Positions 4,902 through 59,144 of a stretch of 64,000 nt of DNA are shown here, one piece after another. The position numbers and the translations under genes are program-made. The DNA is from Actinomyces sp. B33. Its GTDB lineage: Bacteria > Actinomycetota > Actinomycetes > Actinomycetales > Actinomycetaceae. Position 1 is the first letter of the stretch; every line of letters begins with the position of its first letter. Location: contig NZ_JAMRYR010000005.1 in the NCBI RefSeq assembly GCF_028437565.1, positions 124,001 to 188,000 of the forward strand. The letters are read 5' to 3'. The notes under the pieces were generated by a model. That model ran no database searches, was not told the origin of the DNA, and saw only the letters and a list, made by a program, of their open reading frames with translations.

Positions 4902-5210
4902 TCAGTGGGAGTCGGAGGACTTCCCGTCGTGCATCTTGTCGTCGCTCATCTTCCCGTCGTCCATCTTGTCCTTGCCGTCGTGCATCTTGCCGTCCGACAT
5001 CGCACCGTCGTGCATCTTCCCGTCGTCCATCTTGTCCTTGCCGTCGTGCATCTTGTCGTCGCTCATCTTGCTGTCCGACATCTGCGAGGAGTTCGAGGTC
5101 TTCCCGTCGTTCATCGAGTCGCCTCCGGCGCCCCCCGCGTTCGAGCAGGCGGCGAGGCCGACGGCGGCCGAGGCGAGGATCATGGCGGAGGCGGCGAGCT
5201 TACGGATCAT
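4902..5210 (-). CDS. Met/Asp/His-repeat lipoprotein (pentapeptide MxKDx-like)
   Basis: A 102-residue predicted lipoprotein. The N-terminus ([22 protein letters not shown]) is a signal peptide ending in the lipobox LAAC. The rest is a low-complexity chain of short units such as [18 protein letters not shown], repeated about three times in tandem, very rich in Met, Asp, Lys and His. This resembles the pentapeptide MXKDX repeat family. Function is unknown; the Met/His content would suit copper or other metal binding, which is inference. I chose ATG 5210 because it begins the signal peptide and follows an AGAAG site; an upstream in-frame ATG at 5243 would overlap the promoter leader. It is divergent from dipZ, and a SigK-type promoter lies in front. 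Confidence 0.82.
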
Positions 5211-5260
5211 GAGGATTCTTCTTTCGTCGTGGACGCCCTTCATCGGCGTCTTCGCAGATT

Positions 5261-5287
5261 GTTCGGAGCCGACGACTCGCCGGATTG
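5261..5287 (-). promoter_or_regulatory. SigK-type promoter for the repeat lipoprotein
   Basis: Read on the minus strand this is CAATCC (5287-5282), a 15-base spacer, then CCGAAC (5266-5261). The published mycobacterial SigK consensus is CCATCC-N15/16-CCGAAT, so both boxes differ by one base and spacing is exact. It would start transcription about 45 bases before the lipoprotein ATG. A sister promoter for dipZ lies 38 bases away on the other strand. Confidence 0.7.
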
Positions 5288-5324
5288 GTCCTGTTCGAGT
5301 GATCTATGCCATAGCAGGATTCGC

Positions 5325-5351
5325 CGATCCATCCGGGCGAGGACTCCGAAC
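5325..5351 (+). promoter_or_regulatory. SigK-type promoter for dipZ
   Basis: CGATCC (5325-5330), a 15-base spacer, and CCGAAC (5346-5351), close to the mycobacterial SigK consensus CCATCC-N15/16-CCGAAT. The -10 element is identical to that of the divergent lipoprotein promoter, and in both the two spacer bases before it are CT. The predicted start lies about 25 bases before the dipZ ATG, leaving room for its ribosome binding site (AGAAAGG, about 5368-5374). Confidence 0.7.
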
Positions 5352-5382: not shown

Positions 5383-7179
5383 ATGCTCAGCGTGGTCCTC
5401 ATCGGCTTCCTCGGAGGCCTCATCACCGGGATCTCCCCATGCATCCTCCCGGTCCTCCCCGTGATCTTCCTGTCCGGCGGCGCCCAGGGCGCGCGCGCCC
5501 AGGACCAGTCGGCGGCCCCGAAGATCACCTTCGCCCCCGCCGGCATCGGCCTGGGGACATCGGGCGCCCCGGGGGCAGCGCCGATGGCCTCCTCGACGGG
5601 CGCCTCTCCCATGCCCCAGGTTTCGCGCTGGCGCCCCTATCTGGTGGTCCTCGGCCTGGTCATCAGCTTCACGGTGTTCACCCTCCTGGGGTCGGCGCTC
5701 TTGACCCTCCTGGGCCTGCCGCAGGACTTCATCCGATGGACCGGGGTGGTCCTGCTCGCGGCGATCGGCATCGGGATGCTCTTCCCGCAGGTCATGGAGT
5801 TCCTCGAGAAGCCTTTCGCCCGATTCGGGCGCTCCGGCGGCAAGAGGCCGTCGAACGGCTTCCTCCTCGGCCTCGTCCTGGGCGCGGCCTACGTCCCGTG
5901 CGCCGGCCCCGTCCTCGCCGCCGTCTCCGTCGCGGGGACGACCGGTCAGATCGGCGTCGAGACCGTGGCCCTGGCCTCCTCCTTCGCCATCGGCACCGCC
6001 GTCCCCCTCCTCTTCTTCGCCCTCGCCGGTCGCAAGCTCACCGAGCGCATCGCCGCATTCCGAACCCGCCAGCGCGCCATTCGCATCACCGCGGGCGTCG
6101 CGATGATCGCCCTGGCCGTCGGCATCGTCACCGACCTGCCCGCCACCATCCAGCGCGCCCTGCCCGATTACACGTCGGCGATTCAAAAGAGCACCGACGA
6201 GGCGCTCCACGGCCCCTCGGGGGCCGGCGCGTGCCAGCCCGGCTCCGAGTCCCTCGGCGATTGCGGCCCCCTGGCCCCGATCAGCGGCATCGTCTCCTGG
6301 TTCAACACGCCCGGCGACGCGCCGATCGCCGAGGCCGACCGCGCGGGCAGAGTCGTCCTCGTCGACTTCTGGGCCTACTCGTGCATCAACTGCCAGCGCG
6401 CGATCCCCGGGGTCGAGCGGATCTACGAGACCTACAAGGACTCCGGCCTGGAGGTCATCGGCGTCCACTCGCCCGAGTACGCGTTCGAGCGCGAGGTCGA
6501 CAACGTCAAGGACGGCGCCGCCAGGCTCGGAGTCTCCTACCCGGTGGCCGTCGACTCCGACCTCGTCACCTGGCAGAACTTCGACAACCACTTCTGGCCC
6601 GCCCAGTACCTGTCCGACGCGAATGGGCGTCTGCGCTACTTCGCCTACGGCGAGGGCGGCGAGGAGACCCTCGAGCGCCACATCCGCTCGCTCCTGACCG
6701 AGGCGTCCCCCGGCGTCGCATTGCCGGCCGCGATCTTCGCCGACGGCGAGGAGGCTGACGAGGCCGCCCTCGGCGCGCGCACCCCGGAGACCTACCTCGG
6801 CTCGGCCCGGGCCGAGCGCTGCCAGTGCGACGAAGGGCGGGTCGCGCCGCTGAGGAACGGCGAGCACGGCTTCTCCTTCCCCACCGACCTCGACCTGCAC
6901 CACTTCGCCCTCGACGGCCAGTGGAGCGTCTCGGACCAGTCGATCTCCCCGAACGGCGGGACCGCGGGACTGCGCCTCCACTACGAGGGCCGTCAGGTCA
7001 ACCTCGTCGCCTCCGGGAAGGGGAAGATCCGGTACACGGTCGACGGCCAGACCCGCGAGCTGATGGTCGACGGGGTCCCCAACGGCATCGAGCTCGTCTC
7101 CACGGACGAGACGTCGCAGGGGATCCTCGATCTCGAGGTCGATGAGGGCCTGGAGCTCTACTCCTTCACCTTCGGGTGA
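5383..7179 (+). CDS. dipZ: DipZ: fused CcdA-type membrane domain and thioredoxin-like protein
   Basis: Moves reducing equivalents from cytoplasmic thiols across the membrane to an extracytoplasmic thioredoxin domain. The 598-residue product starts with a CcdA/DsbD-like membrane domain (about residues 1-250) with the paired cysteines in [12 protein letters not shown] and [14 protein letters not shown] thioredoxin-like domain follows, with the redox motif CINC ([22 protein letters not shown]) and a YAFE segment, then a C-terminal beta-rich domain (about 480-598). This is the architecture of Mycobacterium tuberculosis DipZ, here somewhat shorter. ATG 5383 has a good ribosome binding site; the open frame extends upstream but without coding character. 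In M. tuberculosis dipZ belongs to the SigK regulon; here a SigK-like promoter and sigK-rskA flank it. Confidence 0.93.
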
Positions 7180-7185
7180 GGGTAT

Positions 7186-7230
7186 GCGCTGGGCGCGCGA
7201 GTCCCCAACGAGGACTCGCGCGCCCAGCGC
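7186..7230 (+). terminator. Perfect 19-bp hairpin terminator after dipZ
   Basis: Left arm 7186-7204 and right arm 7212-7230 pair perfectly over 19 bp around a seven-base loop (CCAACGA). It begins six bases after the dipZ stop codon and ends 53 bases before the sigK -10 box. No T-run follows. It most likely separates dipZ transcription from sigK-rskA. Confidence 0.75.
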
Positions 7231-7282
7231 GGCGCGGGGGCCGTTCCCCCGCCCGTATCAACGGATCGAGGATCGGCCCGTC

Positions 7283-7288
7283 TACTAT
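7283..7288 (+). promoter_or_regulatory. -10 box (TACTAT) for leaderless sigK
   Basis: TACTAT ends six bases before GTG 7295, so the transcript probably begins at or next to the start codon. The same TANNNT-N6/7-start arrangement recurs at several genes in this window. No SigK-type element is visible here, so sigK itself may be transcribed by the housekeeping sigma factor. Confidence 0.55.
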
Positions 7289-7294
7289 GTGGGG

Positions 7295-7846
7295 GTGAAT
7301 GACAGTGACATCGCAGACGAGGAGCTCGTGGGCCTGGTGGCGCGCGGCGATGAGCAGGCCTTCGCCGACTTCTACGACAGGTGGTCGGGCCGGCTCTTCG
7401 GCCTCATCCTCAGGATCCTCGTCGATCGGGCGCAGGCCGAGGAGGTCCTCCAGGAGGTATTCCTCGAGGCGTGGCGGTCGGCCGGCGGGTTCGATCCGTC
7501 CCGCGGGTCGGCTCGAGGGTGGATCGTCACGATGGCGCGGCGTCGGGCGATCGACAGGGTGCGGGCGAGCCAAGCCGCGCGGGACCGCGAGTCCCGGGCG
7601 AGTCTCGAGGGTATCCCCTTCGACGAGACCGCCGAGGCGGTGCACGCGTCCATCGCCGCCCGCGAAGTGCGCGAGGCCCTCGATGAGATCGGCGAGCCGC
7701 ATCGATCGACGGTGATCCTCGCGTATTTCACGGGGTTGACGCATCAGGAGATCGCCGAGCGCAGCGGGGCGCCGCTGGGCACTGTCAAGACGAGGATCCG
7801 CGACGGGGTGATCCGCCTGCGGACGATACTGGGAGTCGAGGGATGA
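7295..7846 (+). CDS. sigK: ECF RNA polymerase sigma factor, SigK-like
   Basis: A 183-residue group IV sigma factor with region 2 (FADFYDRWSGRLFGLILRIL...AEEVLQEVFLEAW) and region 4 (ILAYFTGLTHQEIAERSGAPLGTVKTRIRDGVIRLR), the helix-turn-helix that reads the -35 element. It overlaps the anti-sigma gene context typical of SigK/RskA, and SigK-type promoters occur upstream of dipZ and the repeat lipoprotein. I chose GTG 7295, placed six bases after a TACTAT box; GTG 7289 is possible. The open frame extends back to 7142 inside the end of dipZ and the terminator, which is not coding. The protein contains no cysteine, so the disulfide redox switch described for M. tuberculosis SigK cannot operate here. 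Confidence 0.88.
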   Translation: MNDSDIADEELVGLVARGDEQAFADFYDRWSGRLFGLILRILVDRAQAEEVLQEVFLEAWRSAGGFDPSRGSARGWIVTMARRRAIDRVRASQAARDRESRASLEGIPFDETAEAVHASIAAREVREALDEIGEPHRSTVILAYFTGLTHQEIAERSGAPLGTVKTRIRDGVIRLRTILGVEG

Positions 7847-7860
7847 AGGAGGGAGCACCG

Positions 7861-8679
7861 ATGAGTCGGATGAAAGGCGACGGGCGGGGCGTCGCCGGGG
7901 TCGGTGACGACTGTGAGGGCGTCGACCGCGAGGTGGCGGGGATCCTCGGGGCGTCCTTGACGCCGGTGGCCCCTCCCGAGCGGATCCGCGCGGCGCTGCT
8001 CGACGAGATCTCGCGCACGGCTCAGGACGATCCGATCGAGGCCCCGACGCCGCTGCGATCCGATCGGGTGCCCGGAGGGCGGGCTCCGGTCGAGGAGGCG
8101 GAGGGGGCGACGGTCGTCGAGTTCCGTCCGCGCCGCGTGACGCGGTGGCTGTCGCGGGCCGCGGCGGCCGCGGCGGTGGTCGTCGTCGGCCTGGGGGGCT
8201 ACCAGTACGGTCGGATGTCGACGATGGAGACGATGTCGGATGCGACCTCGTACGCCAAGCTCAATCAGATGCAGGACGTCGAGCGGGCGTCCGACACGAT
8301 GCCCGACGGGCACATCGCGACCCTGACGTGGTCGGAGTCGATGGATATGGCGGCCGTCGCCCTGCCGGCGGCGATGACCGAGGGGATGGATGGCGAGGAC
8401 GGGCCGTTCCTCCACGTGTGGGTTCGCAGGAACGGGGTCGTCGAATCGGCCGGCGTGTACGAGCCGAGCAGGGGGATGGAGTTCTCCTTCATCCATCTGA
8501 TGCCCGCGGAGGGCACTGACGTCCTCGTCACGCAGGAGCCGTCGAAGGGGGCGGATCGTCCGACGGGGGAGCCCCTTGTCGTCATCCACGTCGGCGCCCG
8601 GGGAGGCGCTCCGGAGGGTCTGGGATCCGGGTCCGGCTCGGCGGCGGGGTCGGCCGCCGCGGTGTCCGATCGCGCGTAG
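7861..8679 (+). CDS. rskA: Anti-sigma-K factor RskA-like membrane protein
   Basis: A 272-residue membrane anti-sigma factor expected to hold SigK inactive until cleaved by regulated proteolysis. An N-terminal cytoplasmic sigma-binding part (about residues 15-95, including EVAGILGASLTPVAPPERIRAALL) is followed by one transmembrane segment (WLSRAAAAAAVVVVGLGGYQYG, about 97-118) and an extracytoplasmic RskA-type domain (ATLTWSESMDMAAVALPAAM...FLHVWVRRNGVVESAGVY). The open frame starts at ATG 7843, overlapping the sigK stop, but ATG 7861 follows a near-consensus AGGAGGG (7848-7854) and is preferred. The low-complexity tail (GSGSGSAAGSAAA) is unusual. The pair is clearly one operon. Confidence 0.88.
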   Translation: MSRMKGDGRGVAGVGDDCEGVDREVAGILGASLTPVAPPERIRAALLDEISRTAQDDPIEAPTPLRSDRVPGGRAPVEEAEGATVVEFRPRRVTRWLSRAAAAAAVVVVGLGGYQYGRMSTMETMSDATSYAKLNQMQDVERASDTMPDGHIATLTWSESMDMAAVALPAAMTEGMDGEDGPFLHVWVRRNGVVESAGVYEPSRGMEFSFIHLMPAEGTDVLVTQEPSKGADRPTGEPLVVIHVGARGGAPEGLGSGSGSAAGSAAAVSDRA

Positions 8680-8909: not shown

Positions 8910-9026
8910 CATCTGTGGTCCGACGGTGGGCCCATGCCCGTCCGGCGAAGCGGCCGCGACGGCGCCACCTCGACGACGGACCTGAACACGCCCAGTCCCC
9001 TGGCCGATCAGCAGGAGCCGATACAC

Positions 9027-12000
9027 ATGAGACGTCACCACACGCCCCTGAGAACAGGGATCGTCGCCGCAGCACTGGCCGGACTCGTCGGCACGGGGCT
9101 GATCGCGGTCCCGGCCGCGCCGGCCACAGCCGCGACCACCGATCCCATCGCCGAATACCTCTTCACCAGCGCGCCGGCGGACTCCACGACCATCAAGAAC
9201 ACCGCCCCCGACGCGACCGTCGGCGACGCCCGTGTCCGCAACGGGGCGGCAAGGCACTGGACCGACTCCTCCCTGCTCCTGACCGGTGGCTCCAAGACCG
9301 GCTCGGGCACCTGGGTCGAACTGCCCGACGACCTCCTGAAGGGCTCCGAGCAGGCGACCGTCCAGATGGAGGTCAAGGCCGACGCCCCGATGCTCAACGC
9401 CTTCCACTTCCTGTGGAACATCGGCAACGACTCCTCCGACACCGAGTACTTCTTCTCCTCCCTCAACTGCGGCAACGGTCGTCGCCCCCTCGTCGGCATC
9501 AAGGCCTCCGGGCGCGAGGAACTCGTCCAAGCCGGCTCCTGCGGCGTCAGCGCGGACCAGTGGATCTCCGTGACCTCCGTCGTCGAGGACTCCACCGCGT
9601 CCCTGTACATCGACGGCGTGCGCGTCGCCTCCGGCCCCGTCAGCGCCACCCCCGCGAAAATCGCCGACCAATCCCTCAACGCCATCGGGCGATCCCCTTG
9701 GCCCGACCCCCTCTTCTCCGGCGCCGTCTCCTCGTTCCGCGTGTGGAACCGCGGCCTGAGCGCCGACGAGATCGCCGACCTGTCCGCGCGCGACGCCACA
9801 CTCCACGAGACGGCGATCACCGCTCGCGCCCAAGCGATCCTCGACGGGCTGACGATGCCCTCCGGCAGCATCGACGCCGACTTCGTCACCCTGCCGACCG
9901 CCTCCGGCGCAGTCGCATGGACCTCGTCGGCCCCCGAGGTCATCGCCCCCACCGGGGCCGTCGTCCGGCCCTCCCTCGGAGCCGAGCCCGTCCAGGTCGA
10001 CCTCACCGCGACGGCGACCGTTCGCGGCCTGAGCGCCACCCGCACGGTCCGCGTCACCGTCGAGCCCTCGACGCTCACCGACGCCGAGCGGCTCGACCAG
10101 ACCGCCCAGGCCTACGCGATCCAGCCCGTCCTCCAATCCGGGACGACCCTGCCCGCCGGCCCCGCCGGCACCACGCTGACCCTCGCCGGCGACGCCTCCA
10201 TCGGCGTCGACGAAGCCCGAACCGTCACCGTCGCCGGCGACCAGCCCGTCGAGGGCACCATCACGGCCACCATCGCCAAGGACGGGGCCACCGTCGTCAA
10301 GGCCTTCCCGGTCACCGTCCTGCCCCGCTCCGCCTCCACCCAGATCCTCTCCTACCACCGCACCGCCACCACCGAAGACCGCGCGAACAACGGCGATATC
10401 GCCTACTCGATGCACCTGGCCCTCGACGAGAACGGCACATGGACCCCCCTCAACGAGAACTACGGCGTCTTCTTCGCCCGCACCGCGACCTCGCCGGCCC
10501 AGAACGAAGACATCAACACCTCCCTGCACCGCTCCCTCAAGGACCCCTCGCTCTTCACCGCCGCCGACGGGACCTACGGCGTCGTCGCCGTGCGCACCGC
10601 CCGCGGAACCGCGCAGGCCGACGCGACCGGAGCCACCTCGATCCTCGTCGCCTCGTCGAAAGACCTGCTCTCCTACGAGGAGGCCGCCGACTCCGGCTCG
10701 ATCATCGACGTCGGCGAGACCAACGGCGTCAACGCCCCCTACGTCGTCTGGGACTCCTCGCAGAAGCACTACCTCGTCGGCTGGACCGACGACGGCGGCA
10801 TCGACAAGCACACGACCTTCGACTCCCTCGCCGACTCCACCGCCACCCACGGCCCCGTGCGCGTCGGCGCGGTCAGCGTCTCCGGCTCCGTCGACGACCC
10901 CGGCATCGAGGACTACGCCGCCGGACGATCGATCGCGATCCCCGCCAGCGTCGCCGACGCCCTGAAGGTCCGCCTCGGACGAGTCGTCAACACCGGCGCC
11001 TCGACGATCGCCGGCGTCTCCGTCGACGTCGACACCCCCGTCGCCGAACTCCCCCTGGCCTCGACCATCGACCTGTCCTACTCCGACGGCTCGACCGCGA
11101 CCCTGCCCGTATCCTGGGACCTCTCCCTCGTCGACACCTCCAAACCCGGCTCCTACCAGGCCACCGGCACCGTCCTCCGGGACGAGTACCCCGTGCCCTT
11201 CGCCGAGGAGCGCGCCGACCCCTCCGTCTACAAGTGGCAGTGGAAGCGCGAGGACGGCGCCCAGACGAAGTACCTGATGATCGCCACCAACGACATCCGG
11301 GGCGACAACGTCTGGCAGAACGGCACCCCCCACATGCCGATCCGCATGGCCGACTCCATCACGGCGCTGGCCGACACCCCCGGGGACTCGACGGGGCTCA
11401 TCGACTCTCGCGGCTACAACCCGAAGGAGTCGGTCCTCATGTCCAAGGGGCAGCGCAACTCCCAGGGCCAAGCCATCACCGGCTCCTTCTGGGCGCCCGA
11501 ATTCCACGAGATCGACGGGAAACTGACGATCCTGTTCATGCCCAGCTACAACTCGCGCTGGACCGATGGCGCAGCCGCCTACACCCAGCTCAAGAAGGAC
11601 GACAAGGGATTCGACCTCGACCCGACCGTCGCCGCGAACTGGACCGTTCCCACAACGGTGACCCGGGCCGATGGCAAGCCCCTGGCCACCACCGCCTCCG
11701 GCGGCGTCGGCATGTCCCTCGACATGACCTACTTCACGGATCAGGCCGGCCAGTCCTACTACGCCTGGCAGCAGCTCGGCGCCATCTACATCGCGACCAT
11801 GGATCCCGCCGACCCGTCGAAGGTCACCTCGATCCCGCGCCGCATCGTCGCCCCCGAATACGCGTGGGACAACGCCATCGCCGAGGGCCCCAACGTCGTC
11901 GAGCGCGACGGCAAGCTCTACCTCATCTACTCCGGGTCCGCCGTCGGCAAGTCCTACACGACCGGACTGGCCGTCGCCGACGCCTCCGGGGCCTCCGACC

Positions 12001-15000
12001 TCACCGACCCGGCCTCCTGGGCCAAACTCAACTACCCGATCCAGAAGTCCGGGATCTTCAACGGCCAGTGGCAGCTCGGCACCGGGCACGGCATGTGGAC
12101 GGAGGACGAGCACGGATCGATGCTCTACGTCTTCCACGCCTACGCCAACAACACGCCCGGGTACTCGAACTACTCCGGCCGCGACATGTTCGTGCGCCGC
12201 GTCCACTGGGCCTCCGACTCCATGCCGATCTTCGACATGGACCTCGACGAGGAGGTCGCGCCGCGCTTCGCCACGGTCACCGCGACCGTCACCGTCGGCG
12301 GGGGAGGGGTCGACGTGCCCGCACCCTCGGCCCACTACGACATGACCCGCTCGGCAGGAAAGCTCGTCGACGTCTCCGGCAACGGCCACGACGCCGCCCT
12401 GACCGGGATGGACGACGCCTCCTTCATCGACATCGACGGGCAATCCATCGCCGACTTCACCGGCACCGGCTACGCCACCCTCCCGTCGGGCCCGATCACC
12501 CGCGGCGACAACGACTTCACCGTCGAGATCACCGTCGCCGGGGCCGCCCTGCAGAACCAGTTCGGCTGGGTCATCGGCGACGGCATCGGCGACTGGAACA
12601 CCACCCGGCTCGGCAACTACGTCTTCGTCAACCCGGCGTCGAGCGAACGCGCCGGAGGAATCCTCGCCGGGATCCGCGTCAAGAAGGGATCGAGCAACGG
12701 GGAGGTGCGCATGCCCGCCGGCGGCGCCATGTCCTCGACGTCCTTCACGACGGTGACGATGACCTCCAAGGACAACAATCTGTCCCTGTACGTCGACGGC
12801 AAGAAGGTCTCCACCGTCGACCACGAGTACTCTCTCTCCGACATCGTCCCCACCGGGGACGTCCTCGGGTACATCGGGCGCTCCCTGTACCGGCCCGACG
12901 GGCTCCTCAAGGCCAAGGTCTCCGACGTCAAGCTCTGGGATAAGGCCCTGACCCCCGCCGAGGTCGCCTCGTCGGCGCCCGGCGCCGCCGAGCGCACCAA
13001 GCTCTTCCAAGCGATCCTCGACCGCGACATCCTCGCCGCCATGCTCGGCGGCAACGCGTCGGCCGAGGAGATCACCCAGGACCTCACCCTGCCCGCCTCC
13101 GTCAACGGCATGGCCCTGACCTGGCAGTCCTCCGCGCCCCAGACGATCAGCGCCACCGGCGTCGTCTCGCGCACCAGCCAGGACGTCCCCGTGACGATGA
13201 CCGCCACCGACACGACCGGCACCCCCCACTCCTTCGCGCTCGTCGTCAAGGCGATCAGCGAGAACGAGGTCGCCGCCCAGGTCGCAGCGGATCTCGACGC
13301 CATCGGCCTCGACGAGGTCGCCTACGAGAACCTGCCGCTCGTCGCCTCCGGGACGAAGTACGCCTCGGCGATCACGTGGACGTCCTCCGACCCCGCCCTC
13401 GTCACCGAGACGGATCCGGGCTATACGGCCGCGCCCGTCGGCGCCACCGACCCCTATGCGGGCGCAGGCATCGTCACGAGGCCGGCCTACGGCGCCGGCA
13501 ACGCCGCCGTCACCCTGACCGCTACCGCCGTCAAGGGCGAGGCGCGCGAGAGCCGCACCTTCAACGTCACCATCGCCGAACTCGGGCGCAGCGCGCCCGA
13601 CGCCGGATACGCGGCCGCCTACTTCACATCCGATAGCGACGAGAAGGTCTACGAGGCCTACACCACGGAGAACAACTTCTTCACCTTCACCCCGGCCAAC
13701 GGATCGAAGCCGGTCCTCGCGCCGACGACCGACACCACCGGCCTGCGCGACCCCTACATCCTGCGCTCGGTCAACGGCGACAAGTACTACATGGTCGCCA
13801 CCGACCTGTGCATCGGATGCGGGACCTCATGGGGCGACGCCCAGTCCAAGGGCTCGCTCAAGATCGAGGTGTGGGAGTCCACCGACCTCGTCACCTGGAC
13901 GAGGACGAACGAGAACGAGGACACCGGCATCACCGTCAACCGGCCCGAGGCCGGCATGACGTGGGCGCCCGAGGTCGCCTGGGACGAGCACCTCCAGGCG
14001 TACGTCGTGTTCTTCGCCTCGCGCCTGTACGACGACGTCCAGCACACCTCGACCTCCACCGGGGGCCACGCCCGGATGTTCTACGTCATCACCCGCGACT
14101 TCGAGCACTTCACCTACCCGCCGCAGACGTGGCAGGACACGGGACGCGCGAGGATCGACTCGACCGTCACGAAGATCGGCGACTACTACTACCGGTTCAC
14201 CAAGAACGAGGACAGCGGCGCCGCCGACGGACTCGAGCGCGGCAAGGACATCTTCCTCGAGCGCTCCACGGTCCTCACCGCGCCGACGGCCTCGTCGAAC
14301 TGGGACGCCGACCCGACGACGACCTGGCAGCTCGTCGACACCGCGATGACGACGAAGATCACCGGCCAGGCCGGCGAGGGCCCGCAGATCGTCAAACTCA
14401 ACGAGGGCGACCCGAATAACGCGGGCGACACCTACGCGTTCCTCGTCGACAACTACGGCAACGGCGGATACGTCCCGTTCCTCGCCGAGGGCAGCTCCAT
14501 CGCCGCCTCGGCGAAGGGCTCGCGGCTGTCCGAACGGGCCGACTGGAAGGCCCACTCGACGAGCGGCCTGCCCGCCAGCCCGCGCCACGGCGCCTTCGTC
14601 AACGTGCCCCAGACGGTGCTCGACGCGATGGACTCGTGGACGGGGATCGCTCCGGTCGCCTCGACCACCAAGGTCACCGTCGCCGACTCCGTGGCGACCG
14701 CCGTCGTCACCGCCGCCGACCGCGGCGACGTCATCGGCACCGTCACCTTCTCCTCGGGGCAGTGGAGCCGGACCATCGACCTGACGGACCACCGGGCCAA
14801 CGTCGAGGTGCCCGACACCGTCACCGGCGTCATCACCGCGTCCTACGACGGATTCCGCGACGGCCTCGTCAAGACGTCGACCGGAACGGTCAACGCCGAC
14901 GGGACGCCGACCGGCGACGGCACGGACGACGAGCCGATCGACACCCAGGTGCCCGCCGCCGACGTCCACTACGCCTTCGACGAGGCGCCCGCGGACGGGC

Positions 15001-18000
15001 GCACCATCGACAACGTCGCCGGCGACGGCCTCGACGCCGCGCTCGAAGGCACGGGAGGCGTCTTCGCCAACGGCGCCCTCGCCCTGCCCGGCGGCGCCGC
15101 CGGCTCCGACGCGGCCCACGTGACGATCCCCGGACGGGCCTTCGACGGCCGCGACGTCGTCACCATCAACATCTGGATGGCCAACGCCACCGGCAACGGC
15201 AACTACGCCGGCGCCTACGTGGGCAACGCCTCCCAGAACAACGGGTACTGGCTGTTCAACCCGTCGAACCCGAACGGGCGCGTCAAATCCGTCATCACCA
15301 CCGCGACCCCGTCCTCGCCGAGCACGTCCCCGTGGTCGACCGAGCGCGGGACCGCCGAGCGGGCCTCCACGTCGTCCATGGCGATGTACACGACCGTCAT
15401 CGACGGCAAGAACGGCGTGATGTCGGTCTACCTCAACGGGCACAAGATCTCCGACACGGCGATCACCACGGACCTGACGAGCTTCGGCGACCTCGTCGCC
15501 TTCATCGGCAAGTCGCCCTACCCCGACGCGTTCTTCAAGGGCACGGTCGACGACTACTCGCTGCACTACTCGGCGCTGTCGCCCAGGCAGATCACCGCCC
15601 TGTACCGCTCGCAGGCCCTCGAACGCGCCAAGGCCCAGGTCGCGGCCGCGATCCCCGCGACCGCCACCGAGGACTTCGCCCTGCCGACGACGGCCGCCGG
15701 CGTCACGGTCCGCTGGGCCGTGGCCGACGGCGACGCGATCGGCATCGACGGAGCCCGCGCCCGAGTCTCCCGTCCCGCCGCCGAGGCCGGGGACGCGACG
15801 GTCCGTCTCGTCGCGACCTACGTCATGGACGGGACCAAGGTCTCGACCTCCGAGCGCGAGGTCCTCGTCCCGGCGGACCTGTCCGACCAGGACAAGGCGC
15901 AGGCCGACCTCGACGCGGTGTCAATCGTCAACGCCGAGGACATGCGGACGAACTTCTCCGTGCCGACTCAGGGCGCCCACGGGTCGACCATCGCCTGGAG
16001 CGTCGTCGACGACGGGGGAGCGCAGGCCGACATCGGCGAAGGCGTCAACTCGGCGTCCCGGACCGTGACGGTGCGCCGTCCCGCCGCGGGCAACGACCCG
16101 GTGACCCTCACCCTCAAGGCCGTGTCGACGAACGGCGGGGGGAGCGCGACGAAGCAGTTCACGGTCGTCGTCCAGCCGATGCCGTCCGATGAGGACGCGA
16201 CCGAGGCCTACGTGTGGGCGTTCTTCACCGGTGAGGGCGACGGCGCCGAGAAGATCTCGATCGCGGCGTCGAAGGGCAACGACGCGCTGGCGTGGAACAC
16301 GCTGAACAACGGCGTCCCCGTCATCGAGTCGACGGCCGGCACCGGCGGTCTGCGCGACCCGTTCATCCTGCGGTCCCACGAGGGCGACAAGTTCTACATG
16401 ATCGCCACGGACCTCAAGGTCGCGGGCCTGGCGGGCGGCTTCACGACCGCCCAGCGCGAGGGCTCCCGGTACATCGAGATCTGGGAGTCGACGGACCTCG
16501 TCAACTGGTCGCAGCAGCGCCACGTCAAGGTGTCGAGCGATCTGGCGGGCAACACCTGGGCACCGGAGGCGTTCTACGACGAGGCGAGCGGCACGTACGT
16601 CGTGTACTGGGCGTCGAACCTCTACGACTCGCCGGACGCGTCGGCGCGCACCTCGCTGACCTACAACCGCATGGTGTACGTGACGACCGATGACTTCGTC
16701 AGCTTCTCCGAGCCGACGGTGTGGATCGACTCCCAGCGCGGCAACGGCCGCGACGGCAAGGGCGCGATCGACGTGACCGTCGGATACGAGGACGGCGTCT
16801 ACTACCGCGTCTACAAGGACGAGCGGGACATGTCCCTGCGCGAGGAGAAGTCGACGAACCTCTTCGCCGAGCTCCACGGCGAGTTCGCCGACGCGCAGGG
16901 CCCGGCCGACGAGTGGACGCTCATCGGGGCCAAGCTCCTCGACGGCCTGGACAACGCCTGCGCCTCGTGCGGCGGGAAGTTCACCGCGGGCGAGGGGCCG
17001 ACGCTGTTCCCCGCGAACGAGGGCGACGTCAACGGCGCCAAGTGGTTCCTCTTCGCCGACCAGCCGAACTATCACGGCGGGCCGAACCACTACATCGGTT
17101 TCGCGACCGACCGGTCCCTCGCCGAGACCGGGGCCGACGGGTGGTACTCGGTGGCTCAGAAGCTGTCGGCGAACATGCCGCAGAACGCCGATGGCGGCAA
17201 GCCGCGTCACGGCACGGTCATCCCGGTGACCCGAGACGTCTACCAGAAGGTCCTCGAGGAGCTCCAGCCCGATATCGCCGTGGCCTCGGTGGCGGCGATG
17301 GAGGTGTCGACGACCGTCGGCACGGTCCCGGTGCTGCCCGCGTCGGCTGAGCTGACGATGGCGGACGGGAGCTCGTCGACGGCGGAGGTCGTGTGGGAGG
17401 AGGTCGCCGCCGAGTCCTACGCGACGCCGGGGACGTTCACGGTGCGCGGAGTCGCGCAGAACGATTCGCGCGAGCCGGTCGAGGTCGTCGTGACGGTTTC
17501 GCCGGTGCCGTCCTCGGACGCGTCGCTCGCGTCGTTGACGATCGCGGGGGTGACGGTCGATCTGACCCGCGATCCGCTGGCCGTCGAGGTCGCCGACCCG
17601 CGGGCGCTGACCGCCGACGGGGTCGTCGCCGTTGCCTCGGACGAGGGGGCGAGGGCCGAGGTCGTTGTCGAGGGGACGACGGTGACGGTCACGGTGACCG
17701 CTGAGGACGGGACGACGGCGCGGTACTCCGTGTCGGTCGGCCGGGCTCCGGAGCCGACGCACGATCCCGCGGTGGTTCTCGACGACGATGAGGTCGTGCG
17801 CGGCCAGATACTGGCGATCACCGGCACCGGGTTCGTGCCGGGGGCGTCGGTTGAGGCGGTGTTCCATTCGACTCCGGTGGCGATCGGCGTTGAAGAGGCC
17901 GATGGCGACGGCGGCGTGGGGTTCACCTTCACGGTTCCCGCCGATGCCGAGTTCGGCGAGCACCGGGTGGTGCTGACGCAACCGAGCACCGGACTGGAGG

Positions 18001-18524
18001 CCGAGGCGGCGCTCGCGGTGTTCAGGGGGGAGAACCCGGACGAGCCGGTTGATCCGGATCAGCCGGTGGACCCGGTGGACCCGGATCAACCCGTGGACCC
18101 GGTGGACCCGGATAAGCCCGTGGACCCGGTGGACCCGGATAAGCCGGTGAACCCCGTGGACCCGGATAAGCCGGTGGACCCGGTGGACCCGGATCAGCCG
18201 GTGGACCCCGTGGACCCGGATCAGCCGGTGGACCCCGTGGACCCGGATAAGCCCGTGGACCCGGTCGATCCGGATAAGCCTGTGAATCCCGTGGACCCGG
18301 ATAAGCCGGTGGACCCGGCTCAGCCGGACACCCCGGTGGCTCCGGATGATTCGAAGGGCGGTGACGGCGTCAAGCTCAAACCGTCCGTCGGGAAGAAGCC
18401 GGCGGCGACGCCCGGCCGCGCGCTGGCGGTGTCCGGATCGAATGCCCTGGTGGTGTCAGCGGGGGCTCTGTCCCTGCTCGGGATCGGCATCGGGGCGGTT
18501 AGGAGGAGTCGCAAGACTCGCTGA
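9027..18524 (+). CDS. Giant cell-wall-anchored protein with three GH43 modules, LamG and Ig-like domains
   Basis: A 3165-residue secreted protein, probably an arabinan- or arabinoxylan-degrading enzyme. Order from ATG 9027 (AGGAG at 9012): signal peptide (1-36, ending APATAA), LamG 1 (about 38-250), atrophied Ig-like segments, GH43 1 (about 438-1082, interrupted near 610-728 by an Ig-like insert), LamG 2 (1098-1320), Ig-like, GH43 2 (1523-1874), LamG 3 (1974-2198), two Ig-like, GH43 3 (2391-2746), Ig-like and cadherin-like domains, a VDPVDPDKP stalk (about 3003-3100), and a sorting region LAVSG, hydrophobic segment, RRSRKTR. Each GH43 module keeps DP, WAPE and EGP motifs (for example near 503, 821 and 953), so all three look active. 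Substrate is inferred from the family and the arabinose genes with similar operators. An open frame reaches 8934 upstream, but it lacks a signal peptide start. Confidence 0.9.
18045..18320 (+). repeat. Tandem repeats encoding the VDPVDPDKP stalk
   Basis: About ten in-frame copies of a 27-base unit, with variants DQP/DKP and VDP/VNP, inside the GH43 gene. The encoded Pro/Asp-rich stretch is a typical wall-spanning stalk next to a sorting signal. Long near-identical units make copy-number change by slippage likely and assembly error possible. There are no unique spacers, so this is not a CRISPR array. Confidence 0.9.
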
Positions 18525-46466: not shown

Positions 46467-47927
46467 GTGGTCGTCCGACCCCGCATCGCCGTCTGCGGCA
46501 TCCACATCGAAAGCTCGACCTTCACCCCCTACACCTCGACAGCCGACGACTTCGCCGTCACCCGCGGCCCGGACCTCATGGCCCGCTACGAGTGGCGGGG
46601 CGCCGACTGGGCCCTCGCCGTCGACTGGGTGCCGATCCTCCACGCCCGCGCCCTGCCCGGCGGCGTCGTCGAGCGCGGCGCCTACGACGCCTGGCTCGCC
46701 GAGATCCTCGACGGCCTGAGCGCCGCCGGCCGCCTCGACGGGGTCTTCTTCGACATCCACGGGGCGATGAGCGTCGACGGCCTCGACGATGCCGAGGGCC
46801 ACATGATCGGTGCGATCCGCTCGGTCATCGGGCCCGAACCGATGGTCTCGGCCTCCATGGACCTGCACGGCAACGTGTCCGACGCCCTCTTCGAGGGCTG
46901 CGACCTGCTCACCTGCTATCGCATGGCCCCCCACGAGGACGCCTGGGAGTCGCGCGAGCGCGCCGCCCGCAACCTCGTCGACCGGCTCCGCCAGGGCCTG
47001 CCCAAACCGGCCAAGGCCCTCGTGCACGTCCCCGTCCTCCTGCCTGGGGAGAAGACCTCGACGCGCATCGAGCCGGCGAAATCCCTGTACGCGATGATCG
47101 AGCCCGTCGAAGCCATGGACGGGATCCTCGACGCCGGGATCTGGATCGGCTTCGCGTGGGCCGACCAGCCGCGCTGCACCGGCGCCGTCGTTGTCACCGG
47201 CGACGACCCCGAGCTCGTCGCTGAGCAGGCGCGGATCATCGGCCAGGAGTTCTGGGACAGGCGCCGCGACTTCGAGTTCGTCGCCCCCGTCGCCACCATC
47301 GACGAGTGCCTCGACTTCGGCCTGAGAGCCCGGCGCCCCTATTTCATCTCCGACTCCGGCGACAACCCGGGGGCCGGCGGCGCCGACGACGTCACCGTCG
47401 CCCTCGCCAGCCTTCTCGCCTGGCCTCCCGTCGTCGACGGGTCCCTCGACGTCGTCCACGCCTCCATCGTCGACCCGGATGCTGCGGGCGCCTGCTGGCG
47501 GGCCGGGGTCGGTCAGAGCGTCGACATCGAGGTCGGAGGCCGCATCGACACCCGGCCCCCTGGGCCCCAGCGGGTGCGCGGGACCGTCCGGGCCCTCGCC
47601 GACGACCCGCTCGGCGGGCCCACGGCCGCGATCCGCACCGGGGGCCTCACCCTCATCGTCACGACGAACCGCGCCCAGTACACGACGTTCGAGCAGTTCG
47701 AGCGCCTCGGCATCGACATCGCCGCCGCCGACGTCGTCGTCGTCAAGATCGGCTACCTCGAGCCCGACCTGTATGAGACCCAGGCCGACTGGCTCATGGC
47801 CCTGACCCCCGGGGGCGTCGACCAGGACCTCCTGCGCCTGGGCCATACGAGGATCTCGCGCCCGATGTTCCCCTTCGACCCCGACATGGACCCCGGGGCG
47901 ATGGCGGCGCGGGTCGTGATCCCGTGA
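46467..47927 (+). CDS. M81 family metallopeptidase (MlrC-like)
   Basis: A 486-residue protein of the family named after microcystinase C: N-terminal domain IAVCGIHIESSTFTPY, FFDIHGAMSVDGLDDAEG, SASMDLHGNVS and CYRMAPHEDAWE (probable metal ligands), and a C-terminal MlrC domain beginning near YFISDSGDNPGAGGADD. In actinobacteria and proteobacteria these proteins often sit in sugar or peptide transport operons and their true substrate is mostly unknown. GTG 46467 follows TAGGAG. It overlaps the downstream ROK kinase by four bases. Here it more likely acts on a small amidated or peptide-linked sugar derivative than on microcystin; that is inference. Confidence 0.88.
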   Translation: MVVRPRIAVCGIHIESSTFTPYTSTADDFAVTRGPDLMARYEWRGADWALAVDWVPILHARALPGGVVERGAYDAWLAEILDGLSAAGRLDGVFFDIHGAMSVDGLDDAEGHMIGAIRSVIGPEPMVSASMDLHGNVSDALFEGCDLLTCYRMAPHEDAWESRERAARNLVDRLRQGLPKPAKALVHVPVLLPGEKTSTRIEPAKSLYAMIEPVEAMDGILDAGIWIGFAWADQPRCTGAVVVTGDDPELVAEQARIIGQEFWDRRRDFEFVAPVATIDECLDFGLRARRPYFISDSGDNPGAGGADDVTVALASLLAWPPVVDGSLDVVHASIVDPDAAGACWRAGVGQSVDIEVGGRIDTRPPGPQRVRGTVRALADDPLGGPTAAIRTGGLTLIVTTNRAQYTTFEQFERLGIDIAAADVVVVKIGYLEPDLYETQADWLMALTPGGVDQDLLRLGHTRISRPMFPFDPDMDPGAMAARVVIP

Positions 47928-58374: not shown

Positions 58375-59144
58375 CAGGCGACCTCGACGCGCTCGCCGAC
58401 GCCGGCCTCCAGGCACAGGCGCTGGGCGCGGGCCAGTCGGGAGTTGCCCGCCGTCGCCAGGTCGAGGAGCGCCCCCAGCTCGGCGCGGTCGAAGGGCGCG
58501 TGCTCGGCGGTGCCCTGCACCTCGACGAACGCGCCCGACCCCGTCTGGACGACGTTCATGTCGGTCTGGGCCCGGACGTCCTCGACGTACGGCAGGTCGA
58601 GCATCGGCACGCCGTCGACGATGCCGACCGAGATCGCCGACACGGAGTCGGTCAGGACCGGGGCGCCGGCCCGCGGCGCGACGATCCCCCGCTCCGTCGC
58701 CCACCGAACGGCTTCGGCCAGCGCGATGTAGGCGCCCGTCACCGAGGCGGTGCGGGTCCCCCCGTCGGCGCGCAGGACGTCGCAGTCCAGGACGATCGTG
58801 TTCTCCCCGAGGGCGGACACGTCGACGACCGCCCGCAGGGACCGCCCGATGAGGCGGGAGATCTCATGGGTGCGCCCGCCGATCTTGCCCTTGACGGATT
58901 CCCGGGAGGAGCGCTCCGAGGTCGCCCGCGGCAGCATCGCGTACTCGGCGGTCACCCACCCCTCGCCCGAGCCCTTGCGCCAGCGGGGGACGCCCTCCGT
59001 CAGGGAGGCGACGCACAGGACCCGGGTGGCGCCGAACTCGACGAGGACGGATCCCTCTCCCGTCCCCGACCATCCGCGGGTCAGGGCGACGGGCCGGAGC
59101 TGATCGGTGGCGCGCCCGTCGGCGCGCAGATGAGTCGTCGTCAT
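58374..59144 (-). CDS. rph: Ribonuclease PH
   Basis: Phosphorolytic 3' exonuclease that trims tRNA 3' ends. A 256-residue protein starting [20 protein letters not shown], with [74 protein letters not shown] and [16 protein letters not shown] 59144 gives this N-terminus; a much longer open frame upstream overlaps nudC on the other strand and is not coding. rph and rdgB are on the minus strand here, unlike murI. Confidence 0.96.

Follow-up and report, generated by a model that had tools for sequence, protein, structure and literature searches.

A stretch of 64,000 nucleotides from Actinomyces sp. B33 (contig NZ_JAMRYR010000005.1, positions 124,001 to 188,000; the whole of it is referred to here as the window) carries two back-to-back promoters of the type served by the extracytoplasmic function (ECF) sigma factor SigK. 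One faces dipZ, which is followed by sigK and by rskA, the gene of anti-sigma K, and the other faces the gene of a methionine-rich repeat lipoprotein. The arrangement is probably the Actinomycetaceae form of a SigK-RskA-DipZ envelope-stress module, in which the surface lipoprotein has the likely role of a methionine (Met) sink. The evidence that carries this proposal is the conservation of the divergent promoter pair, the replacement of the usual fasciclin partner of DipZ by the repeat lipoprotein, and a matching difference in the ectodomain of RskA.

A conserved divergent promoter pair

The two elements read CAATCC-N15-CCGAAC on the minus strand (5261..5287, read from 5287 to 5261), before the lipoprotein gene, and CGATCC-N15-CCGAAC on the plus strand (5325..5351), before dipZ; both are present exactly as the initial annotation had proposed, with the N15 spacing and CCGAAC in each. 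Exact matches to C[ACG]ATCC-N15-CCGAA[CT] number 3 in the window, with 0.20 expected in shuffles. The third, at 46813, lies within an open reading frame (ORF; L006), and the N16 version adds one further match, at 58682, which an ORF (L081) also covers. Allowing one mismatch brings the window to about chance (6 found and 3.99 expected for N15, 2 and 4.50 for N16). The genome of 2.28 Mb holds 7 exact N15 and 3 exact N16 matches, the N15 count being about that predicted by 0.2 per 64 kb, and a control with the pattern read backwards gave 0 for N15 and 0 for N16. Three of the five genome N15 matches besides the pair fall within ORFs and two outside, and 16 relatives show 2-16 matches per genome, again chance-like. 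The whole-genome scan for the N15/16 pattern that had been suggested as a check was run and, with counts near chance, does not discriminate. A genome-wide regulon drawn from the motif (exact N15, N16 and variant -10) was dropped, as the matches were chance-like in kind, and no convincing extra SigK target appeared in another seven stretches, two of them from the same genome and five from relatives. Because single matches occur at about the chance rate genome-wide, the evidence is comparative and comes through the conserved divergent pair.

Relatives were collected through both sigK and dipZ. A SigK search at E 1e-15 gave matches in 79 of 148 genomes, the window's own included, and 39 SigK-match loci of relatives were compared. 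Sixteen of these (L039-L053 and L071) have dipZ-sigK-rskA in the order of the window, L055 and L070 carry a fasciclin gene along with dipZ, and in the other 21 no dipZ was seen in the stretch. Named GTDB genomes were searched with a dipZ profile, and of the best 80 of 552 loci, which were kept, eight are from Actinomycetaceae. With L089 and L091 dropped, since they repeat the species of L039 and L071, 23 loci remain, window included, and are called Met-type here; their rows are not independent (L051-L053, for example, are near copies). Promoter sites were scored against C[not T]ATCC-N15/16-NCGAA[CT] (11 points, a site being counted at 10 or better), and expected counts come from 60 dinucleotide shuffles per locus.

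Both sites score at least 10/11 in 18 of the 23 Met-type loci, where 0.03 are expected, and both are perfect in 9/23 (0.00 expected). Taken singly, the forward (dipZ) site and the reverse (lipoprotein) site each reach this score in 20/23, with 0.45 and 1.7 expected, respectively; overlapping control windows of the same loci contain both sites in 0/5261 cases. In other Actinobacteria with a fasciclin gene opposite dipZ, the unchanged rule finds both sites in 28/36 loci (0.07 expected) and in 3/6326 overlapping control windows (L098 and L099, contigs of the same genome, duplicate each other, and L099 was left out of the control windows). L050 serves as a natural negative: its slot yielded no lipoprotein, and the reverse promoter is absent (score 8). 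In co-directional mycobacterial loci the motif scores at least 10/11 before 21/21 fasciclin genes, within a search region about 320 bases wide, and before 11/13 dipZ genes; for M. tuberculosis, PMC9861118 reports that mpt83, mpt70 and dipZ have SigK-dependent promoters. A chance origin of the boxes in GC-rich DNA would agree with the genome-wide pattern count, but it is refuted, as far as sequence allows, by the conservation of the divergent pair, at comparable distances, in intergenic DNA that has diverged, and its probability is negligible. What stands above chance is the divergent pair in its intergenic region and the conservation of that pair. One predicted promoter pair thus serves two unrelated partners, a fasciclin protein and a Met/aspartate (Asp)/lysine (Lys) lipoprotein.

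Gene identities and the probable assignment to SigK

The genes dipZ (5383..7179), sigK (7295..7846) and rskA (7861..8679) lie on the plus strand. DipZ of the window is full length, with a DsbD/CcdA-type membrane part, a TlpA-like thioredoxin with the motif YSCINCQR and a C-terminal Thioredoxin_10 domain; PF02683 (DsbD_TM), PF00578 (AhpC-TSA) and PF17991 (Thioredoxin_10) are all above cut-off, and against the solved DipZ ectodomain (5cyy/2hyx) the DipZ profile gives E 7.9e-118. SigK of the window is an ECF sigma factor with zero cysteines (Cys). At E 1e-15 it has 4 solved matches, the best of which is 4nqw_A (SigK, 2.7e-39), and it scores 223 bits against NCBIfam PRK09646 (SigK), just under the cut-off of 226, the next model giving 139.9 bits. 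RskA comprises an N-terminal anti-sigma part, one membrane segment and a Met-rich ectodomain; RskA_C (PF10099) is found above cut-off at E 8.6e-10, and the N-terminal part of the RskA profile matches 4nqw_B at E 2.2e-14.

Adjacency, promoter type and conservation together suggest that both promoters would depend on SigK. The alternative, that another ECF sigma factor and not the adjoining SigK serves both of them, could draw on the last base of the -10 box, which is mostly C in the compared divergent loci and T in the mycobacterial loci, and on some fasciclin loci that have the pair without sigK beside dipZ. Against it, all 23 Met-type loci and 19 of the fasciclin loci, those bearing SigK, carry sigK directly 3' of dipZ, and both the profile and the solved sequences point to SigK as the nearest sigma factor; we regard this alternative as improbable.

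Replacement of the fasciclin partner

The lipoprotein gene (4902..5210, minus strand) encodes 102 amino acids of Met/Asp/Lys/histidine (His) repeat, Cys-free apart from the lipobox. Its start is placed at the ATG at 5210 and not at the upstream ATG at 5243, because relatives start similarly (M-x-I-R-K or alike). The mature part, of 81 residues, contains 11 Met and 5 His; the protein matches no Pfam family at E 1 and stays under all NCBIfam cut-offs. A Met/Asp/Lys repeat lipoprotein is present in 22 of the 23 Met-type loci. Met makes up 7-31% of the mature part in these 22 proteins, and none of them has a Cys beyond the lipobox. The initial description of a Met/Asp/His repeat holds for Met and Asp and not for His, which is absent from 11/22, and the family is better described as a Met/Asp/Lys repeat. 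The lipoproteins of L042 (G001) and L046 (G002) have 28% and 31% Met in the mature part, in MMSD/MMxD repeats; both genomes have two dipZ copies.

It may be asked whether this Met content has any function. The lipoprotein could instead be a structural or charge spacer, or an adhesin-like decoy, in which Met is incidental while DipZ acts on other proteins. Lipoprotein length (69-133 amino acids with the signal), repeat number and His content do vary freely, and fasciclin proteins, which are adhesion-type domains, occupy the same slot elsewhere. Met, however, is held at its 7-31% while the other features drift, and the RskA ectodomain core of the same clade is also Met-rich, as described below; such a spacer or decoy role appears unlikely.

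Elsewhere the slot opposite dipZ holds a fasciclin lipoprotein, with sigK 3' of dipZ, in Microbacterium, Mycetocola, Agromyces, Pseudoclavibacter, Lentzea and others. Fasciclin (PF02469) is found in 0/17 of the Met-type genomes searched, the window's own included and one of them 70% complete. In a quick DipZ tree of 96 rows, the Met-type DipZ, 23 in all, fall together in one group, with a Shimodaira-Hasegawa-like approximate likelihood-ratio (SH-aLRT) support of 100. Since the Met-type loci are one DipZ clade, they document one replacement and not free interchange. Thus, of the SigK-DipZ axis with interchangeable surface partners that had first been suggested, the axis and the differing partner are strongly supported, the same pair being found with two partners, and the word interchangeable is too strong. 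The Met lipoprotein most likely took the fasciclin slot by one replacement in the ancestor of the clade; as the root of the tree is not fixed, the direction is taken from the wide spread of fasciclin.

The replacement also bears on what DipZ does. In PMC9861118, DipZ is called potentially involved in the disulfides of MPT83 and MPT70. The best fasciclin match per locus has 2-4 Cys between its first aligned residue and the stop in 56/56 loci; this count takes in the lipobox Cys where the alignment extends that far, for instance in L055, whose fasciclin has two more Cys besides. The Met-type partner has no Cys beyond the lipobox, and DipZ is therefore not kept there for the disulfides of its neighbour. 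Other DipZ substrates must then exist, at least in the Actinomycetaceae branch. A second dipZ copy lies directly 3' of rskA in L042 (9508-11289) and L046 (8516-10306), and no SigK-type site was found in the 260 bases before it in either locus.

The RskA ectodomain

Met accounts for 5.7% of the RskA ectodomain core in 24 Met-type rows and for 1.9% in 55 others, among which L089 was wrongly counted. Another filter, which kept 15 of 23 Met-type rows, gives 5.2% as against 1.8% in 54 rows (rank test p 1.4e-7, uncorrected for kinship). The motif DGH occurs in 23/23 unique Met-type ectodomains and in 0/53 others, and H-x5-W-x3-M-x-M in 20/23 and 0/53, respectively. In the window these residues are DGH at 149-151, W157, M161 and M163. 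As the Met type is one clade, the change in RskA counts as one co-change and not as many. AlphaFold2 models residues 131-240 as beta-rich, with block means of 83-96 for the predicted local distance difference test (pLDDT), and the structural matches of the ectodomain are weak, some of them being copper proteins (FetP, CrdA and HftA). Met-rich ectodomains also occur outside Actinomycetaceae, in L067 (G136, of another family; 8%, with MGEH...MGM) and in L121 (Mycolicibacterium septicum; 9%).

Tentatively, the RskA ectodomain may have turned into a Met/His sensor, for Met oxidation or for a soft metal, along with the partner swap; the lipoprotein would meet the same chemistry, and DipZ would reduce other envelope proteins. 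Such a sensor, if real, would mean that a concrete signal could be named for a SigK-RskA pair. The chief rival to a Met sink is copper buffering, as part of a soft-metal (copper/silver) response in which the Met-rich and at times His-containing lipoprotein would buffer Cu(I) at the surface and the RskA ectodomain would sense it through the conserved His, tryptophan (Trp) and Met. The clade-restricted RskA signature and the copper proteins among the weak fold matches are in its favor, as is the likeness to CusF, in which Cu(I) is bound by two Met and one His beneath a Trp cap, according to PMC6235853. In the predicted model the strand order would place H151 away from M161 and M163, which may speak against a CusF-like site in RskA although the signature is conserved. 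A soft-metal response seems an unlikely explanation of the locus.

Expression of sigK and the SigK cysteines

Housekeeping promoters of leaderless actinobacterial genes take the form of TANNAT close to the start codon. Before sigK, TANNAT stands 4-9 bases from an in-frame start in 23/23 Met-type loci, compared to 6/2828 control windows; in the window it is TACTAT (7283..7288, plus strand), the putative -10 box in a leaderless promoter of housekeeping type for sigK-rskA. Between dipZ and sigK there is also a terminator-like hairpin (7181..7259, plus strand) with no clear T-run, whose folding energy is -65.1 kcal/mol, with a z of -7.9 against shuffles (folded stretch 7177-7262). It is possible that this predicted hairpin is a terminator that separates the two transcripts. 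Given an own TANNAT promoter and the hairpin, sigK-rskA is therefore probably expressed separately, and SigK probably drives mainly the two effectors.

The cysteine pair of M. tuberculosis SigK (C133/C183) is absent in 25/25 Met-type rows (23 distinct loci, with L089 and L091 counted) and in 17/19 SigK proteins of fasciclin dipZ-sigK operons. Among SigK proteins aligned over enough length it is present in 23/80, and the columns agree with the 4nqw_A alignment. A missing pair has been tied to altered or truncated anti-sigma factors in PMC7509140; here, in contrast to that pattern, the Cys-less SigK accompanies a full-length RskA.

A proposed envelope-stress module

In the proposed mechanism, basal SigK and RskA would be made from their own leaderless housekeeping-type promoter. 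An extracellular or envelope signal would be read by RskA, leading to release of SigK, and the released SigK would fire the back-to-back promoters of dipZ and the surface lipoprotein gene. The lipoprotein might then act as a sacrificial Met sink against Met-oxidising attack by hypochlorous acid (HOCl) or peroxide, and DipZ would pass reducing power across the membrane to oxidised Cys of other envelope proteins. The sink role is suggested by composition and by analogous systems such as BcrS-AbcS of Brucella. This ECF/anti-sigma pair drives a Met-rich MXKDX peptide together with MsrQP (bcrXQP) under HOCl, with HOCl resistance, as described in PMC8315932. The sigma group there is ECF16 (same source), and the redox partner is MsrPQ, whereas here it is DipZ. 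Common to both are an ECF sigma factor with a membrane anti-sigma factor, a small Met-rich exported protein and an envelope redox system. Proteins of the pentapeptide MXKDX family (NCBIfam TIGR02953) are, like the lipoprotein here, short exported Met/Lys/Asp repeats. A Met-rich peptide with MsrPQ is reportedly also encoded by mrpX-yedYZ of Azospira, in connection with HOCl.

Several observations weigh against the proposed module. The promoter pair occurs without sigK directly 3' of dipZ in the stretch in several fasciclin loci (Demequina L097 and L126 and Amycolatopsis L102, for example), and these slightly lower our confidence in the proposal, which we hold as probable. The module is patchy: among 34 same-genus relatives, 10 match SigK with an E value of 1e-50 or better. 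Adjacency of sigK is partly a matter of selection, as the window's genome or the SigK search supplied 17 of the 23 Met-type loci; all 8 Actinomycetaceae loci found via dipZ alone, among the best 80 of 552, have sigK directly 3' of dipZ. The promoter scoring rule was fixed once the window and L039-L053, L055, L070 and L071 had been looked at, then left unchanged elsewhere, and within the Met group the score falls below 10 for the forward site in L042, L046 and L071 and for the reverse site in L047, L050 and L071. The window lipoprotein has no match to TIGR02953 at E 1, and the lipoproteins of 10 relatives give 2 weak matches, the best of 27.1 bits with a cut-off of 41. No methionine sulfoxide reductase (Msr) was found joined to the module; the genome's single MsrA and single MsrB look cytosolic by eye, and MsrP-like PF00174 is absent from this genome and present in 2/17 Met-type genomes. 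With no Msr found alongside it, the Met sink would therefore not be recharged as in Brucella.

Relation to the mycobacterial regulon

Control by SigK of dipZ and of surface antigens is already known. The mycobacterial SigK-RskA regulon (mpt83-dipZ-mpt70; mpt83-sigK-rskA) shares with the present module its SigK, RskA and DipZ relatives and a like promoter form, C[ACG]ATCC-N15-NCGAA[CT]. It differs in having fasciclin proteins where a Met/Asp/Lys lipoprotein is found here, and the present layout is divergent, with dipZ adjoining sigK. Here, too, SigK is without the redox Cys pair though RskA is full length, and the ectodomain is Met-rich with DGH...W...MxM. Fasciclin loci of the Microbacterium/Mycetocola/Agromyces type have the same gene order, the same divergent pair and a mostly Cys-less SigK; they are set apart by a Cys-bearing fasciclin in the divergent slot and by an RskA ectodomain that usually has GGG or similar at the position of DGH and is without W-x3-MxM.

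The replacement of fasciclin by a Met repeat, the RskA difference that goes with it and the promoter conserved before sigK appear to be new; they were not found in the literature searched, and an earlier mention in Veyrier 2008, on SigK regulon evolution, is possible. The dipZ/Met-lipoprotein arrangement is not named for Actinomyces or Schaalia in the accessible text of that literature. The SigK regulon makes the MPT70 and MPT83 antigens of tubercle bacilli, and the stimuli of M. tuberculosis SigK-RskA are described as obscure in PMC9861118. As DipZ and the promoter pair stay in place beside a partner that has no disulfide, partner disulfides cannot explain the SigK-DipZ link in general. Both the swap and the RskA difference point to a testable class of signal, Met oxidants or soft metals, for which Actinomyces-type bacteria could take the place of tubercle bacilli as study organisms.

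Directly 3' of rskA in the window lies an ORF of 3196 amino acids (8934-18524), with repeats near its end and a C-terminal tail resembling a membrane anchor.
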